Part shown: piece after piece, positions 19,683 through 51,215 of the stretch
Numbering within the stretch: the first letter of the stretch is position 1
Layout of the letters: each line of letters starts with the position of its first letter
NCBI RefSeq assembly: GCF_003144115.1
Contig: NW_020311998.1
Coordinates: forward strand, 694,581 to 758,580
DNA length: 64,000 bases
DNA from: Tilletiopsis washingtonensis
Lineage: Eukaryota > Basidiomycota > Exobasidiomycetes > Entylomatales
Direction: 5' to 3'
Notes under the pieces: model-generated
Seen by the model: the letters and a program-made list of their open reading frames with translations, nothing else
Told to the model about the DNA's origin: nothing
Database searches by the model: none
Position numbers and translations under genes: made by a program

Positions 19683-19895
19683 AGTGTGCTCACGCGGTGC
19701 TTGCTCAACGGTGCTTGCTCGACGCTGGTGTCTCAGAAGAAGGAAGGGGGGGGGGTGAGATGGGGATGGTTGCCAAAGCGCTGTAAGTGCTTGCGCGGTG
19801 CTTGTCGCTGCGGGTGTCTCGGGAGGAAGAGGGAGAAGAGGATGGGGGCTGAAGCGCTCATGCGGTGCTCGTCTCGGGTGTCTCAGAAGGAGGGA
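19683..19895. repeat. Degenerate direct repeats at the 3' end of the XPG-RuvC gene
   Basis: Three diverged copies, at about 19683-19745, 19775-19830 and 19851-19895. They share a GCGGTGCTTG-like core followed by GGTGTCTC and a purine tail (AGAAGGAGG). Two copies are preceded by AAGCGCT. The third contains the stop codon and last codons of the minus-strand gene, so the repeat unit overlaps its 3' coding end. Read from the sequence by eye; unit length varies. Confidence 0.55.
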
Positions 19896-22800
19896 GATGC
19901 GGGTGCGTGCCGAACCGCAGCAGGTGCTCATACGCCTGGAGCATGATGAGCGCCGAACTGCAGTCCCCGTGAACCAAGGCATCGGGGAGCAAGCCACCGC
20001 CGGCGGCAACCTTGAGGCGGCCAATCTCCTTGCCCGCGCGCTGCGCGTGCTGCGCCATGGGGCGGAGGGCATGGCCGTGAGCATCGCGGCGGGCAGTGCT
20101 GGCAGTAGCCGGCAGGACCGAGTTGAGTTGGCTTGAGAGATACTCGTTGAACGAGCGTGCGTGCACGCCGGGGTTCCTTGCTGCACGCCGCAGAACCTCG
20201 ACGTATGCCTTTGACGTGCGAGCTGTGTTGTGGCGGCGCTTGCGCTGCCCTCCTTGTGCAGCTAGACCCGCCCCGATGATGAGCACGGTCTGCTCTGCGC
20301 GGCCGTGCAGCTGGAGCAGCGATGCTGCCGCTCTATCGACGGTGCGCCGCTGATCGAAGAACGTGTGCAGCCGGATCTCTGCTTCCTCCTCGCTCCGCAG
20401 GAGACGGGAGTGATGGCCTGGCGCCGCTTCGGCCTGCTGGAGACTAGCCAGGCGTGCGGTACCTCGGCGGGTAGCGCGGCGCAGAGTGCCTTGCTTGATG
20501 ACAAGGTTCTGTCGCAGCGTGTGCAACGAGCCGGATCCACCGGTGAGGAGCGGGTAGCGCGAGCTGCTGGCGTGTGGGTTGATGTCGACGCGCACCTCGG
20601 ATGTTGCGGCCACGGCATTCCAGATGCCAGGGTCAATGCCAACAAGCTGCACGTCGCTGTTGAGTGAAAGCTGGACGCTGCTCTCAGGCTGCACATTGCT
20701 GTTGCGGATGAGAGACGCATCGGCGGCACTTGCCCACGTGGCCTCGGGAATCTCGGGCAGGGCGGCGAAGGGTACGTAGACGCCAGCATCGGCCTTGCGA
20801 GGCAGCGCATGCCGCATGGACACATGGTGCAGACGCTCGAGAGAGGCTGCGCTGTGGATGTCGTTGACCTTTTGCCAGATGGCTGGTGCGTGCGTCTTGA
20901 GGTAGCCGGCCACAGACAAGGCTGCTGCGGGCGCTGAGCCAGGCGTCGGTGGTGCAGGCCGGCCAGCAAGCACGCCGAGCTTCGCAAAGGCAACATCAAC
21001 TCTGCCGGCGCCATCAAAGCGCACAGCCAGAGGAAGTCGCTGCGTGCGTCTTCTCCAGCAAGGCCCGAGGATCTTGTCCCACGGCTGCCCGCCCTGGGAG
21101 AGGGCCATGTAGCTTGAGAGCGCAGCAAACGCCTCGTGTGCAGACTCGCTGTCAAGCCAGGCCAAAGCTGAGCCAAAGACGCGCTTGGCGAGGTCAGCAG
21201 GGCCGTCTGACGACTCGAGATGCAGCTTGAGAGCAGCGGCCCTCTCTGCTGTGCGCAGCGCATTCCGCAGCAGAGCGTGATGTTCCGGCCCTGCCATTGC
21301 AGAATAATGCTTGACGAGCGGCACAAGCTTGTACGGCTTGGGCAGCAGCAAGTGCAGGCGCTCGTGCAGACCAAAGATGTCCTCGTCGGAGGCGCCAAGG
21401 CCAAAGAAGCTGGCAGGCGTGCGGCCGTTGTTGTCGGGCTCCAGCTGGCGCGAGAGTGCGCTCGCTGCAGCTGCAAATGCAGCAACTTCGGCCGTCAGCC
21501 CCGGAGAGAGCGCGTTGCCGCCGTTGCTGAGCATGCCGGTGAGGGCCTTGACGATGCTATCGGCACGCCGGACGTTGACATCCTTGAGGGCAAGGTCGAC
21601 GGTGCTGGCCTCGCTGCCGGCAGACTCTGCAGCCTCGCCGCCTTCGAGCGCGGCAAGGTGAGCTGCAATGGCACGCTCGGCAGCAGGATTGATGCCTCCA
21701 AAGGTGACAAGACGCGCGAGGAGTTGTTGCGAGCCTTGTGGAGCTTTACTCAGCTCTGCGTCCAGCAGCGGCATTGCTCGTGGAAGGCCAGCCGCTGCTG
21801 CCTGCCTGATGCGCAGCTGCGCCGTCGTCTTGAGCATGGCACGCCATCGTGACGTAATGTACTGCGTGAGACCGTCCTTTTCTTCCGCAAGCAGCATGGA
21901 GCGGGGAAAGCCCACGAGGCCGGCGAGGTGGGCGGCACCAAACATCTCTGCAGCGCTCTTGCGGCCACCACGCCGCGCCCGGGCTGCGACGGGCGGTTGA
22001 AGCGCTTCGAGGGCGTGCGCCACAGCAATGTCAAAGGTGCCGCCGTCTCTCTTGCTGTCTGGGCGCATGATCTCGAGGAGAGCACCGCGCGCGGCTGCAG
22101 TCTTCTGCAGTAGAGTGCAGGCCTCGATGGCGATGAACGACATGGTTGCACAGTGCAGCTGCGCAGATGCCTTGATGGCAGCGCCATGCGTCACAGCAAA
22201 ATCTCGATGAAGAAAGCCGTGCGGACTCGAGAGGCGTGCAGTCAGCGTTGAGAGCTGGAACTGCCGTGTCTCCGCTCTGATGGCTGTCTGCTGCTGCTGC
22301 CTGTCGCTTCTGGCCGACGTGCCGGACGTAGATGCCGAGAACCTCGAGCGCTTGCCCTTGTCGAGGCGCACCGTGTCGGCGGCAGCACGCTTGCGTGAGC
22401 TGCTTGTGTTGTCGGCGCGCGGCAGCGAGCTGCTGGCCTTGCTCTTAGCCTGCTTGGCCGCGCTGCCCTTGGCCTGCTTGCCTGTGCGGCCGCCCTGCGG
22501 CAGCGGGAAGACGGGCTTGGGCGCCTTGCCCATGCCCTGTCCTTGCTGCGGGCCCTCCTGCACCATTGGCAGCGCAGGCAGCAGGATCGGCTTGGAGAAG
22601 CGTGCGACGCTGTGCTGCCGGCTGCGCTCGAGGCTGGCAGTTGGGCGCAGGACGGTGATGCGCGCAAAGAAGAGCTCGGGCTGGAAAGCCGCCGTGTTGC
22701 CGACGGCAGCGCGCTTGCTGCTGATGGCGCTTGCTGCGCGTGATGCCATCTGCGCGCTGTGTGAGGCCCATGGTGCGTCAATGTTGACGCCGAGGTTGAC

Positions 22801-24195
22801 AGGCGCTGGCAGCAGGCGGCCCTCTGCCAGGCCCACCACCGGCGCCGCTGCATGGTTCTCCTCGGGCTGCACGCCATCAAGGCGCCACTGTGCGGCTGGG
22901 CCGAGATCGGCTGGTGCAGGCGTCGGACTCTTGTCGAGCACGTGGTCGAGGATGGCGCGGAAGCTGCCATGAAGGCCAGATGGTAGAGCACTGCTTGGTG
23001 CCGCTGCATCGGCGTCGGCATCGGCCAGCTGTGCCTCTGCTGCGTGCACGAGGCCCTCAGCACGGACTGCGCCGACGTTCTTCAGGCCACCCGCTGTGTC
23101 GTCTGTGCCCCAGCATCTGGCGCAACAGGTCAGCTTTTTGCGCTGCCAAAGGCAGAGGCCACCGACTCACAGCGACAGCACGACAAGGCCAGAGAACGAC
23201 ATGTTGCCGAGAGCTGCGCAGAGCTGTGTCTTGCGCACGACATCAAAGAGCGGTTCGGCTGCAGCGGCAGCCTCGGGTGCTTGGCTGCGACGCATGACGA
23301 TGTCGTTTGCCAGCGCCGGGTCGCCTAGCGCCAGATGATCGCTGTCGCCGGAGAGCACTGCCACCGTGACGTTGCTGTGGCGCCGCAGCAGCATGGCCAC
23401 CACTGACACACACGAGTCGGCTTCCATGGCGGCAGCGACAGCGAGCACACCTGAGCGAGCAGCAAGGGCAGTGCTCAGCTGCTCGCCCAGCTGCTCAAGA
23501 GTGGCGCCGCGCTGCTGCAGCACCTTGTTGGCGGCCGGGATGAGAGTAAGATCGCGCACGAGGAGAGGCGCGAGGACCGAGACGGCGAGCTTCTGGACGT
23601 GCTTGCGCAGGAAGAGGCGGCGCTGCTCTGTGGTGAGCCTGCGTTTTGTACCGCCGGCGTTGGCGTGTGCGTCACGCTCGGCAGCTGTCAGGCTGAGCCA
23701 GCGCTCCGGCAGCCAGCCGTCGGCTTCCGGCAGGCCCTCCCAGCGTGCAAGCTCCTGCAGCATTTCGGCTGCCGCAGGTTCGTGACGTCCAGCACGCTTT
23801 GCCTTTGCCGCTGGTCGCACGCCGTCAAAGACAAGAATGGCTTGGGGCGCACCGGCCGCGGGCTGCAGAGCAGCACCGGCTGCGGGCGGAGGAGCTGCAC
23901 CGGGCGCGGGCGGAGCGGCAGCACCGGGCTGCAGCAGTCCCGCAAGCTGCTGCTGGACCGCATGTTGCACGCCGGCTTGCCGTGCGAGCTCAACCAGCGG
24001 GACTCCCGCCGCTAGCTGCGCAGCGGTGCCCGCCCAGTCGCAACAGAGGACGTGCACGGCCCGGATGGTTGCCTGCACCATCACCATGCCCATGTCGACA
24101 ACCACCACGTCAATCGCCGGCGGCATCGGCACAGCACGCTCACCAGCACCAGGAAGAGACAGCGCCCATTTCCATGCACTGCTACCGAAGCCCAT
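19858..24195 (-). CDS. XPG/FEN1-like nuclease fused to a TnpB/Fanzor-like RuvC domain
   Basis: Two exons, complement(19858..23116, 23171..24195), 1427 aa. N-terminal XPG/FEN1 fold: MGFGSSAW start, VVVVDMG (D34), LVFDGVRPAAKAKR (D124), MEADSC (E258, D260), VLSGDSDHLALG (D284, D286). After a 54-nt intron comes CWGTDD (D347/D348), running into the helix-hairpin-helix-like LKNVGAVRAEGL. All acidic metal-ligand positions of the flap-nuclease family can be placed. A basic Ser/Lys linker and a long helical region follow. The C-terminal part has a RuvC-like triad in TnpB/Fanzor order: LVGIDPGIWNAVAA (D1170), TVLIIGAG, FNEYLSSQ (E1333), VHGDCSSALIMLQAY (D1393). The usual CxxC zinc ribbon between the last two is missing. 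The start is fixed by the FEN1-like MGxxG opening; the frame is open further upstream but repetitive. Function unknown: probably a transposon-derived or domesticated DNA-cleaving protein. The XPG call is firmer than the RuvC call. Confidence 0.68.
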
Positions 24196-24230: not shown

Positions 24231-24625
24231 GCCGATGTGCGCCGCTGTGGAGCTGCTTGGTGCAGTTGACGAGCGGCGCTGCTCGCCGATGTGCGGCGCT
24301 GCGGTACTGCTCGCCGATGTGCGGCGCCGATGTGCGGCGCTGCGGTGCGCTGCGGTACTGCGACAGCCGATGTGCGGCGCTGCGGTGCGCTGCGGTGCTG
24401 CTCGCCGATGTGCGGCGCTGCGGTGCGCTGCGGTACTGCGACAGCCGATGTGCGGCGCTGCGGTGCGCTGCGGTGCTGCTCGCCGATGTGCGGCGCTGCG
24501 GTGCGCTGCGGTACTGCGACAGCCGATGTGCGGCGCTGCGGTGCGCTGCGGTGCTGCTTGCCGATGTGCGGCGCTGCGGTGCGCTGCGGTACTGCTCGCC
24601 GATGTGCGGCGCCGATGTGCGGCGC
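24231..24625. repeat. Tandem repeat array with 78-bp higher-order period
   Basis: The 14-mer GCCGATGTGCGGCG occurs at 24285, 24313, 24326, 24366, 24404, 24444, 24482, 24522, 24560, 24598 and 24611, with a variant at 24231. In the centre the spacing alternates 40 and 38 bp, so the true unit is 78 bp (two related halves ending GTACTGCGACA or GTGCTGCTC). Each core is a small imperfect inverted repeat, GCCG-ATGTG-CGGC. The array begins 36 bp upstream of the start codon of the minus-strand fusion gene, so it lies in its leader or promoter. The period is a multiple of three and all frames stay open, which creates long spurious Cys/Arg-rich or His/Ser-rich ORFs. Confidence 0.9.
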
Positions 24626-48253: not shown

Positions 48254-50300
48254 CTACTCAGGCTCCTCAGCGAGCGCACCCGCCTCATCGAGGTCCTCGG
48301 CCGCCGTCGACGTGCGCGGGCGTCCGGCCTTGAGGTCAGCGCGGACAGCGTCTGCGCGCTTGCGCATGTCGAGCAGCACGTCTCTGCTGCTCAGCTCCGC
48401 CTGGCGCAAGCGAGCCAGGTCCTCCTCGTCCGGCGGGCCCGTGTACGGGCGTCCCGTGCGGGCAGCGACCTCCTTCGCCTTGGCGATGGTGCGAGCAATG
48501 AGCGAGCGCTCTTGCTCCTTGGCCGTCGGACCGGCCTTCTTGCGCGGCGACGTCGACGAGCCTCCGCTGCCGTCGAGCTTGGTGCGCCGGCCACTCGTGC
48601 GCGTCGTCGCGTCGTCGGCCTCGGGTCGCAACGAGGCGACGTCGGGTTCGAAGAGCTTGTAGATGCGGTACATATGCAGCACGCCCTGCTCCTTGTCTTT
48701 GCCTGCATCACAAGAAGCGTCAGCATCGCAGCAGAACGCTCGAAGTGAGGCCGCTCACACTCTAGCATCAAGTCGGCGTCGCTCGGCAGCTCGAGCGGCA
48801 GCTGTCCGCAGCGGTCCGAGTGTGCTCGCCTTGCGCGCAGAGTCATGGCACCGGCTCTTGGCTCCGAGAGATGGAACTTGGGGCGAATGCCGCGCTTGTG
48901 GAAGATGGCAAGAATGCGCGGCATGAGCTCCGTCGGCGTCAGGCTCGAAGGGCGCAGTGCGTCGTGGTGCCAGTCGAAGACGAGCGGGACGGAAAGCTTC
49001 TCGCAGAGCGGCAGCAGCTCCTCGGCCGAGTACGACAGCTCGTCGTTCTCCAGCACCAGACGGGCACGAGCTGACGCAGAGAGGCGCGTCGTGATGGTGT
49101 TCTCGATGCGCTCCAGCGTCGCTGCCTGGTCGCCATACGTGCCGCCGCCGTGTCTAAAAGGAATGGTCAGCACATGCACGATCTCGTCCCGGCATGCACA
49201 CTCACAGGATCATGATCGAGTCAGGGCCCATCTCCATCAGGTCGAGGGTCTTGCAGTGATGCTCAAACTCGCGCAAGCTAGCCTCCAGCACGGTGCTGCT
49301 CTTCGCGCCGAGCTGGCAGAACTGGCCCGGGTGCATCGTCAGGCGCACGCCCAGCCGCTTGGCCACATCGCCCGCGGCCTTGAGCTCGGCCTGCAGGAAG
49401 CTGATGTCCCAGCCGTACTGCAGGTGCGAGGCGAAGGGGAATATCTCCGACGACAGGCGCAGGAAGTGGATGTTGTTGGCTGCCGACCACTCGATCATGG
49501 GGATCTGCGGCGCGGTGTGAGCGGACGCCTTGACCACGCTCCCGCATTGCACGTACCAGATCAGCGACGTTCGCCCGTGCAAGGTCCCGCACATAGTCCA
49601 TGCCCTTCTCCTCGATCGTCTTTATCCGCACGTTGCGCGAGCAAAAGACCGGTGGCTTCTGGCCGCGCAGCACGGTGTTGAGGCACGCATAGCCCAGCCG
49701 TCCAGTGAAGGGGCCCCGTGGCTGCATGCCCTCCGTCTCGAAGCAGCGATGCTCGACTGGCGGCGGAATCCACGGCTCAACAGGCTCCTCTGGACTCTGC
49801 TCCTTCTTCGCCCGCGCCTTGCGAGCGCGCTTGGGCTTCGCTTCGCCATCCTCGAACGAGTCCTCGTCTGTCGGAGAGAGCTCCTTCTTGGCGCGCTTCT
49901 TGCGCGGTGCCGGCGCGGATGCCTCTTCGCCGTCTGCCACAACGGCAGCTGCCTTTCGCCCTCGCTTCCTCGGCGCAGTCTCGGCCGACACAGGTTCACG
50001 ATCGTCTTTCACTGCCGCTACAGCTGCAGGCTTGCGCCCGCGCCTCTTTGGTGCTGGCGCTGCATCGGCGCCCTGAGCAACAGCGCTGCTGCTGCCTTGT
50101 GCCGCATGGACTGACGCCGCAATGGCGTCCGAGGTGGCCTGCGCGACGGATTGGACGCTGTTGCTGCTGGTCGAAGCCGGCGCGATGCGCGTCGAGCTGC
50201 GGCGCGACACGGCGACAGGCATGGCGGCGAGGCGGGCGACGCGGGGCGAGCTGTGGACGAGAGTGAGGCGGGTGAGGCTGAGCGCCAGGCGGTGGGCCAT
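48254..50300 (-). CDS. UVE1: UV-damage endonuclease (UVDE/Uve1)
   Basis: Four exons, complement(48254..48702, 48759..49153, 49206..49504, 49557..50300), 628 aa. Uve1 nicks DNA 5' to UV photoproducts and starts an alternative excision repair pathway. The TIM-barrel domain is clear: GRLGYACLNTVLRG, SRNVRIKTIEEKG, MIEWSAANNIHFLRLSSEIF, VRLTMHPGQFCQLGA, ILHGGGTYGDQ, RLVLENDELSYSAEELLPLC, PLVFDWHHDALRP, PKFHLSEPR and DLMLECKDKEQGVLHMYRIY. The first 170 residues contain a mitochondrial-type leader (MAHRLALSLTRL) and Lys/Arg-rich nuclear-type blocks with repeated KRRGRKPA/KRGRKAA units. Dual nuclear and mitochondrial targeting is possible; an ATG at residue 27 could give a shorter form. All junctions restore conserved residues. 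Confidence 0.93.
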
Positions 50301-51215
50301 ATGGGTGTTGGTGTACGGAGCACAGCTGCGTCTCTGACCCGCGAGAAGAACACAACGGCGGCCAGGGTGCGCTTCGGCGGCTGCCAAAAGCGAAGAGGAG
50401 CGCTTGGTCAGGCGATGTGGAGGCGTGTCTCGCGCGCGCGCGTTGCGCTGGCAGCGGCCGCTGCGACGTCACCGCCGCTGCACCGCTGCGCTGACCTGCC
50501 TGCTGGCGACCTTTCCTGCCCTCGACGCTGCAGTCGAGTCCGCTCAAGCTCAAGGTGTTGGACGATCATTGCACGAAGCAGCAGCCAGAGGGACACGCGT
50601 CGGCCTGCGCTTCTCGGGCTCGTCTGGCCTGTAAGGGCTGGCCTGCCTGGCTGACTGAAGCAACGGCGTTGCGTCGCCGTAGGGCGGACAATGGCGCCTA
50701 GGCGATGCCACTGGGTAAAAATGGAGGGCTGAGCAGCTCGTGAGGCGCTTTGTCTTCCCAGCCGTCAGAGCGAAGGTTACGGTTGAGTCTGCGGCGAGCA
50801 GGGAAGCAGAGGTGTCGCTGAAGCATGGGCGAGGTCCTCCGTCCGGAGGCGCGTGAGAGCTCGACGACACCGCCCAGCTCGTCGCCCCCGAGGCCTCTTT
50901 TTCCGCTCGCCTTTCGGGACTATCAGAGAGCCCTATTGCTGCCAGATTTTGGCACCATCTGGCGACATGCTTCAGACGAGACAGCCAGAGGAGATGCTGC
51001 TCGCTGCCGGTGCGGCTGGGCGAGGCACGTGCCGCATGCGCGTCGCAGCGGGGCGCCGCTGTGTTGCCGGTGCGCCGTGCATGAGGCTTCGCGACCGGAG
51101 CGGGCGCCAGCGAGCCGGGCGGCGCGGGGTGCGCTGGCCTCACACCGGCACTCTTCCTCCCGCCCATCACCTCCTCCTCCCTCCTTCCTCTGGCCGCAGC
51201 AGCGTGTGCCGTGCC
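50301..51215. promoter_or_regulatory. Divergent intergenic region UVE1/ALG6
   Basis: About 915 bp between divergent starts. CT-rich leader sequence precedes the ALG6 start. The frame is open upstream of 51216 with further ATGs (for example 50967), so the 5' end of ALG6 is uncertain. Confidence 0.35.

Follow-up and report, generated by a model that had tools for sequence, protein, structure and literature searches.

A dispersed gene family of Tilletiopsis washingtonensis in which an XPG-type nuclease domain precedes a Fanzor-like RuvC domain

Can a single eukaryotic gene unite two unrelated metal-dependent nucleases? This question is raised by a locus on contig NW_020311998.1 of the basidiomycete Tilletiopsis washingtonensis (assembly GCF_003144115.1), where an initial annotation, made from the sequence alone, had proposed that one chain joins an XPG/FEN1-type flap nuclease to a RuvC domain of the TnpB/Fanzor type. 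We analyzed a stretch of 64,000 nucleotides surrounding this locus (positions 694,581 to 758,580; referred to here as the window) and the remainder of the 18.7-Mb T. washingtonensis genome. The XPG-Fanzor-like fusion is real, and it represents a dispersed gene family, within which the window gene stands furthest apart (20-24% identity to the other copies). Five full-length genes are present, namely the window gene (1427 amino acids) and four paralogs designated by their loci as C15 (1385 amino acids), C19 (1352), C25 (1438) and C1:252 kb (1360), and the XPG part precedes the RuvC part in each of them. A sixth copy, at C5:535.5 kb, is 5'-truncated and begins in the RuvC half. Viewed at the level of sequence, the fusion, its catalytic residues and its occurrence in several copies are all evident.

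Gene structure and genomic distribution

After splicing, the window gene forms one open frame without an internal stop codon; this frame and the four full-length paralogs bear out the single fused gene of the initial annotation. The predicted 54-bp intron (GTGAGT..CAG) possesses a consensus donor and contains an in-frame TGA. Nine further GT-AG pairs among those listed would also preserve the reading frame. Homology crosses the predicted splice: FEN1 structures and the paralogs both align with the protein continuously through the exon join. Exon 2 carries, within a single stop-free frame, the tail of the XPG domain (GTDDTAGGLKNVGA) as well as the RuvC part; hence, the fusion of the two domains is independent of the splice call. 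At the C15 locus, a single open frame links the XPG domain with the middle region of the protein. The codon-position pattern is alike in all five full-length genes, with the second position being lowest in GC content.

The family was recovered by using the spliced proteins of C15, C25 and C1:252 kb as queries against the T. washingtonensis genome and by building gene models; the paralog models were based on predicted splice sites, and alternative acceptors are possible for some of them. PF07282, the zinc-ribbon model for TnpB and Fanzor proteins, picked out C19 (E=1.8e-5) in the same genome and gave a weak match to C15 (E=0.037); both of these loci encode the XPG and RuvC pairing. The four full-length genes other than the window gene share 31-42% identity, and C25 is 66% identical to the truncated C5 copy. 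For this last pair, the comparison of 341 RuvC codons (dN 0.29, dS 0.76) shows that the RuvC halves are under purifying selection. Besides its dispersed loci and the truncated copy, the family has left decayed relics across the genome: a window-type relic at C5:855.9 kb (44% identity, with an internal stop), a C25-type relic at C5:860 kb and a C1:252-type relic at C6:726 kb. Short matches are found at C8:79, C6:869 and C15:119 kb and at C11:712 kb.

Several features of these loci were noted in passing. A predicted intron directly follows a conserved G[DN]W motif ahead of RuvC-II in C15, C19, C25 and the C5 copy, and none is found at this position in the window gene or in the C1:252 kb copy. 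The region C5:846500-861000, which holds two decayed family fragments from different subfamilies, has a G+C content mostly of 0.51-0.58, compared with 0.62-0.78 per kb in the window. A segment of 262 bp is 96% identical between the relic regions of C6 (722000-731500) and C5 and is perhaps another repeat. A gene that appears by eye to encode an aspartyl protease-like protein lies beside the truncated C5:535.5 kb copy.

Outside this genome, the protein searches (8000 candidates scored in each) returned as relatives only P0001 and P0002, two near-identical metagenome copies. One metagenome protein shows a single difference from the window gene in 1063 residues and the second differs from C25 at six of 608 compared residues; both are too close to gauge selection. 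The C-terminal piece used as a query recovered no relative among its 8000 scored candidates. In viral and genome contig collections, 59-266 pattern matches were obtained per scan, none of them a relative by tblastn, and one degenerate-pattern scan gave no match; the collections searched contain few fungi, which bounds the lack of outside relatives. The initial annotation knew of no described XPG-RuvC fusion, and we found none in the literature searched, chiefly papers available without subscription. The word XPG is absent from the main texts of two Fanzor studies (PMC10432273, PMC11423790).

Nuclease signatures of the two halves

FEN1 and EXO1 act on the 5' termini of DNA, either cleaving off flaps or resecting the end. 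The seven metal-binding acids of these nucleases can be aligned, in order, in all five full-length copies, and those of the window gene (D34, D124, E258, D260, D284, D286 and D348), as well as the three RuvC acids D1170, E1333 and D1393, are present exactly where the initial annotation had placed them. Searched with Pfam, exon 1 of the window gene alone yielded 5_3_exonuc_N (E=0.056) and XPG_I (E=0.15; 12.9 bits against a curated cut-off of 24.9), and its spliced residues 1-411 matched the NCBIfam model fen_arch (E=0.0011; 18.2 bits against a cut-off of 351.95). All five matches to the N-terminal half in the Protein Data Bank (PDB) at E<=10 were FEN1 proteins (best E=0.034); together with fen_arch, they uphold the annotated XPG/FEN1-type domain. 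Among the four full-length paralogs, XPG_I_2 was matched by each (best E=4.9e-4; C25 with 20.1 bits, under the curated cut-off of 24.2), fen_arch by three (best E=0.001) and XPG_I by two. A profile of the five XPG parts retrieved four PDB sequences at E<=1, all of them EXO1 (E 0.26-0.29). No curated XPG-family cut-off was reached by the window gene for fen_arch or XPG_I, or by C25 for XPG_I_2. The assignment of the N-terminal half to the XPG/FEN1 type thus appears weak but consistent, and it derives from the order of the motifs and the agreement between copies rather than from strong scores.

For the RuvC half, the signature is carried by the other five copies (C15, C19, C25, C1:252 kb and the 5'-truncated C5 gene). 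The Fanzor fingerprint, as laid out in PMC10711439, consists of a DPG motif and a glutamate six residues ahead of a zinc finger. Each of the five copies possesses DPG at RuvC-I, the alternative glutamate just before the zinc finger, followed by the expected [TS][TS] (as DE[YF][LM]TS), a C4 zinc finger and an RD motif at RuvC-III, and each matches the fingerprint with the D-E spacing (206-221 in these copies) and the finger loop relaxed and CxxxC allowed. The motif of Bao and Jurka (PMC3627910), written as a regular expression with loosened cysteine spacing, is likewise matched by all five. Each copy also matched Pfam Cas12f1-like_TNB (PF07282; best E=1.5e-6), where a longer C15 piece scored 27.8 bits against the curated cut-off of 26.3, with C19 (25.5) and C25 (26.1) just below it, and each matched NCBIfam guided_TnpB (best E=2e-4; C25 with 19.6 against a cut-off of 100). 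When a two-paralog profile was run against the PDB, the sole match at E<=10 was the Fanzor of Spizellomyces punctatus (8gkh; E=0.027); with a five-copy profile, 8gkh ranked first of four (E=0.11), the other three being unrelated.

The C-terminal half of the window gene, searched alone, gave only DUF5543 in Pfam (E=0.08, chance level), no match in NCBIfam and two weak, unrelated matches in the PDB, and no Pfam model matched the middle third of the protein. Its Fanzor kinship is recognized because of the paralogs, and it is mainly through them, not through the lone divergent copy, that the annotated TnpB/Fanzor-type domain and its residue order were confirmed. The window gene retains the Fanzor features DPG (D1170) and the alternative glutamate (E1333, in NEYLSS), with D-E-D spacings of 163 and 60. 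Comparison of its residues 1129-1427 with a five-copy profile by hhalign gave P=4.1e-5 and a probability of 70% (an unrelated window open reading frame, ORF, as control gave P=0.57), the 33 matched columns lying outside the catalytic motifs; the XPG part compared with the paralog profile gave P=8.2e-6 and 84% over 117 columns (control ORF, P=0.46). In a three-motif test, the RuvC part scored 60.2; the 4000 shuffles averaged 34.4 and did not exceed 56.6, and the best of 64 window ORFs (250 amino acids or longer) reached 35.6. The score of the RuvC part was driven by the DPG and NEYLSS blocks; because the best third block lay elsewhere than at the D1393 motif, the assignment of D1393 comes from the alignment. 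In the latter, the three RuvC acids are aligned in all six copies, and the ten catalytic acids are aligned wherever the respective region is present. Against a profile of the four paralogs, an hmmsearch with filters on did not match the window gene; with filters off, its XPG piece ranked first (E=4.4e-4; database of 2000 shuffles, 198 window ORFs and the piece itself).

Two defining features, the C4 zinc finger and the RD motif, were looked for in the window gene and are absent, so that we do not class it as a canonical Fanzor. The parts of the gene are listed in Table 1. The basic linker is possibly a nuclear signal, and the middle region, judged by its position, may correspond to REC/WED of Fanzors.

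Table 1. Parts of the window gene and catalytic residues of its RuvC-like domain (window coordinates).
Feature	Position	Strand	Basis
Whole gene, 1427 amino acids	19858..24195 (stop codon 19858-19860)	minus	Open spliced frame; architecture common to four full-length paralogs
Exon 1	23171..24195	minus	Gene model
Predicted intron, 54 bp	23117..23170	minus	Consensus donor; FEN1 and paralog alignments across the join
Exon 2	19858..23116	minus	Gene model
XPG/FEN1-EXO1-like domain, about residues 1-375	23017..24195	minus	Seven acids and GxxNVG helix-hairpin-helix-like stretch
Basic, low-complexity linker, about residues 540-600	22342..22524	minus	By eye; similar basic stretches in paralogs
Middle region, about residues 601-1040	21022..22341	minus	Lies between linker and RuvC in the alignment
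RuvC/Fanzor-like domain, about residues 1160-1427	19861..20664	minus	hhalign, motif test, alignment; no zinc-finger cysteines
D1170, DPG motif, RuvC-I	20632..20634	minus	Sequence and family alignment
E1333 in NEYLSS, RuvC-II, Fanzor-type alternative position	20143..20145	minus	Motif test and alignment
D1393 in HGDCSSALIM, RuvC-III	19963..19965	minus	Alignment only; GD where other copies have RD

Predicted workings and competing explanations

Fanzors cleave guide-matched DNA with a single RuvC site, as PMC10432273 and PMC11423790 report. We lean toward the view that the window gene belongs, as a divergent copy, to a family encoding an XPG/FEN1-EXO1-type 5' nuclease, a basic linker and a Fanzor1-like RuvC nuclease; for the family at large, we infer RNA guidance, break processing and mobility. 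The Fanzor half of a canonical paralog would bind an RNA produced from its own gene, at the 3' end or close by, and, so guided, would locate matching DNA, where the RuvC D-E-D site would make a double-strand break. The XPG half would then trim the displaced strand or resect the 5' end, and this 5' processing could steer the break toward homologous copying, through which the gene would be kept or spread. A basic linker between the two halves would fit work in the nucleus. In the window copy, all ten catalytic acids are kept, but the loss of the zinc finger and of the arginine in RD has probably altered how it is guided or how it cuts; it may have been adopted (domesticated) by the host. Only tentatively do we carry this further and regard the fusion as an RNA-guided nuclease with its own 5'-end processor, that is, a self-contained cut-and-resect homing module that would both break the guide-matched site and ready the ends for copying of the element, and of which at least one copy has since been taken over by the host.

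A lead with respect to such an RNA is a 27-bp motif present just 3' of the C25 gene (C25:210405) and of the truncated C5 gene (C5:536738), with a third copy at C11:167862 that directly follows an unrelated open frame and has no family protein that we could find beside it. The genome contains three occurrences at no more than three mismatches, and the reversed control none. The motif belongs to a longer segment (about 99 bp) in which C5 and C11 share 87% identity, and two of the three sequences fold better than shuffles (z -3.2, -3.2 and +0.4). The segment at C25 and C5 could mark the 3' end of the element, or it could belong to a guide RNA; nothing resembling it was seen at the window gene. 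A GC-rich minisatellite with 38/78-bp units (24279-24612) lies directly upstream of the start codon of the window gene. We rejected the idea that it serves as a guide array, since the 22-bp core of this minisatellite occurs in two of 40 loci, both of them the window locus itself, and tandem-repeat scans of four paralog loci revealed no such array.

Several observations weigh against the guided two-nuclease reading. All four zinc-finger cysteines are lost from the window gene, which has a single cysteine after residue 1100 and none at the finger position, and RuvC-III reads GD, the arginine being lost. The hmmsearch of its RuvC part was not significant: with filters off, at least two of the 2000 shuffles beat this piece by full score and at least four by best-domain score, and the full-length gene reached E=1.8, with a decoy ORF better in full score. 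Scores are weak throughout, most family matches lying under curated cut-offs. A four-paralog XPG profile, built without the window gene, gave eight PDB matches at E<=10, of which the best five were viral fusion glycoproteins, outranking three EXO1 sequences (E~1.5); we regard the glycoproteins as chance matches. Single-sequence AlphaFold models were too poor to use (pLDDT 36.0 for window residues 1000-1427 and 39.9 for P0002). The window produced no Rfam match; one of the three 3' motif sequences folds no better than shuffles. Nor did the notion of an element that processes its own ends, put forward in the initial annotation, find backing: in flanks of up to 1500 bases, terminal inverted repeats of the five full-length genes did not rise above background (12-15, as compared with 11-16 in mismatched flanks), and none of the 10 window ORFs compared with Pfam proved to encode a transposase. 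Three of these 10 gave matches at E<=0.001 (PEX6, an aspartyl protease and the UV-endonuclease UvdE, the last encoded by ORF 49281-50468; E=5.2e-6), and the neighborhood looks ordinary. The initial annotation is supported in the fusion and the types of the domains; it overlooked both the dispersed family and the loss of finger and RD.

The window copy could be a domesticated, guide-independent nuclease whose RuvC domain has decayed into a binding or structural module and whose XPG domain alone works, for instance in DNA repair; we give this a limited share of our confidence. The loss of all four finger cysteines and of RD, on the longest branch of the family, fits such a history, as do the open frame, the conserved XPG acids, the decay of a window-type relic elsewhere and the near-identical metagenome protein. 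The three RuvC acids, however, still align with those of the family and would be needless in a merely structural module. We think it rather improbable that the C-terminal half of the family is an RNase H-fold nuclease that has Fanzor motifs, is not RNA-guided and acts like a resolvase in concert with XPG on branched DNA. The models do recognize only the catalytic core and the zinc-ribbon region, with none for the middle third; yet the specific Fanzor fingerprint, in its relaxed form, is found in five copies, and the top PDB match is a Fanzor.

Chance resemblance, or two genes read as one, deserves thought in a GC-rich genome where long and often overlapping open frames arise easily and where the individual scores are weak. 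This explanation is already contradicted by the paralogs, with the identical domain order at all five full-length loci, and parts of both domains on exon 2 alone, the C15 frame running from XPG into the middle region and the coding base pattern of all five genes make it highly improbable. With the divergent, Fanzor-related fusion retained as our preferred reading, the joining of a presumed guide-directed cutter to a break processor suggests that the handling of the break after cutting belongs to the job of a Fanzor-like nuclease, a role that the fused sites make testable by mutating each in turn. A cut-and-resect enzyme could help to favor homologous recombination, and the window copy offers a natural case of zinc-finger loss with retention of the catalytic acids.

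Comparison with known nucleases

TnpB proteins (IS200/IS605, IS607) belong to the same RuvC/TNB superfamily, and guided_TnpB is matched by all five other copies. TnpB typically carries D-hydrophobic-G and a glutamate in the canonical position (PMC10711439); the family differs from it in DPG, the alternative glutamate position, the introns and the XPG domain. With the FEN1/EXO1/XPG 5' nucleases, the family shares the seven ordered acids, the helix-hairpin-helix-like stretch and the matches to fen_arch, XPG_I_2 and the FEN1/EXO1 structures, but it is set apart by strong divergence (below cut-offs where these are given above) and by the fusion to a Fanzor-like body.

The closest likeness is to Fanzors (Fanzor1/Fanzor2, e.g., SpuFz1, 8gkh), which were shown to be RNA-guided only in 2023 (PMC10432273). 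The five other copies resemble them in DPG, the alternative glutamate, the C4 finger, RD and the PF07282 match, and differ in their D-E spacing of 206-221. Unlike Fanzors, the family proteins begin with an XPG domain some 400 residues long, and no terminal inverted repeats were found in the flanks searched. In the window gene, neither the zinc finger nor RD is present, and the D-E-D spacing is close to that of SpuFz1 (D383, E541 and D606; PMC11423790). The XPG-Fanzor fusion looks like a so far undescribed gene family, a variant of the Fanzor-like nucleases.

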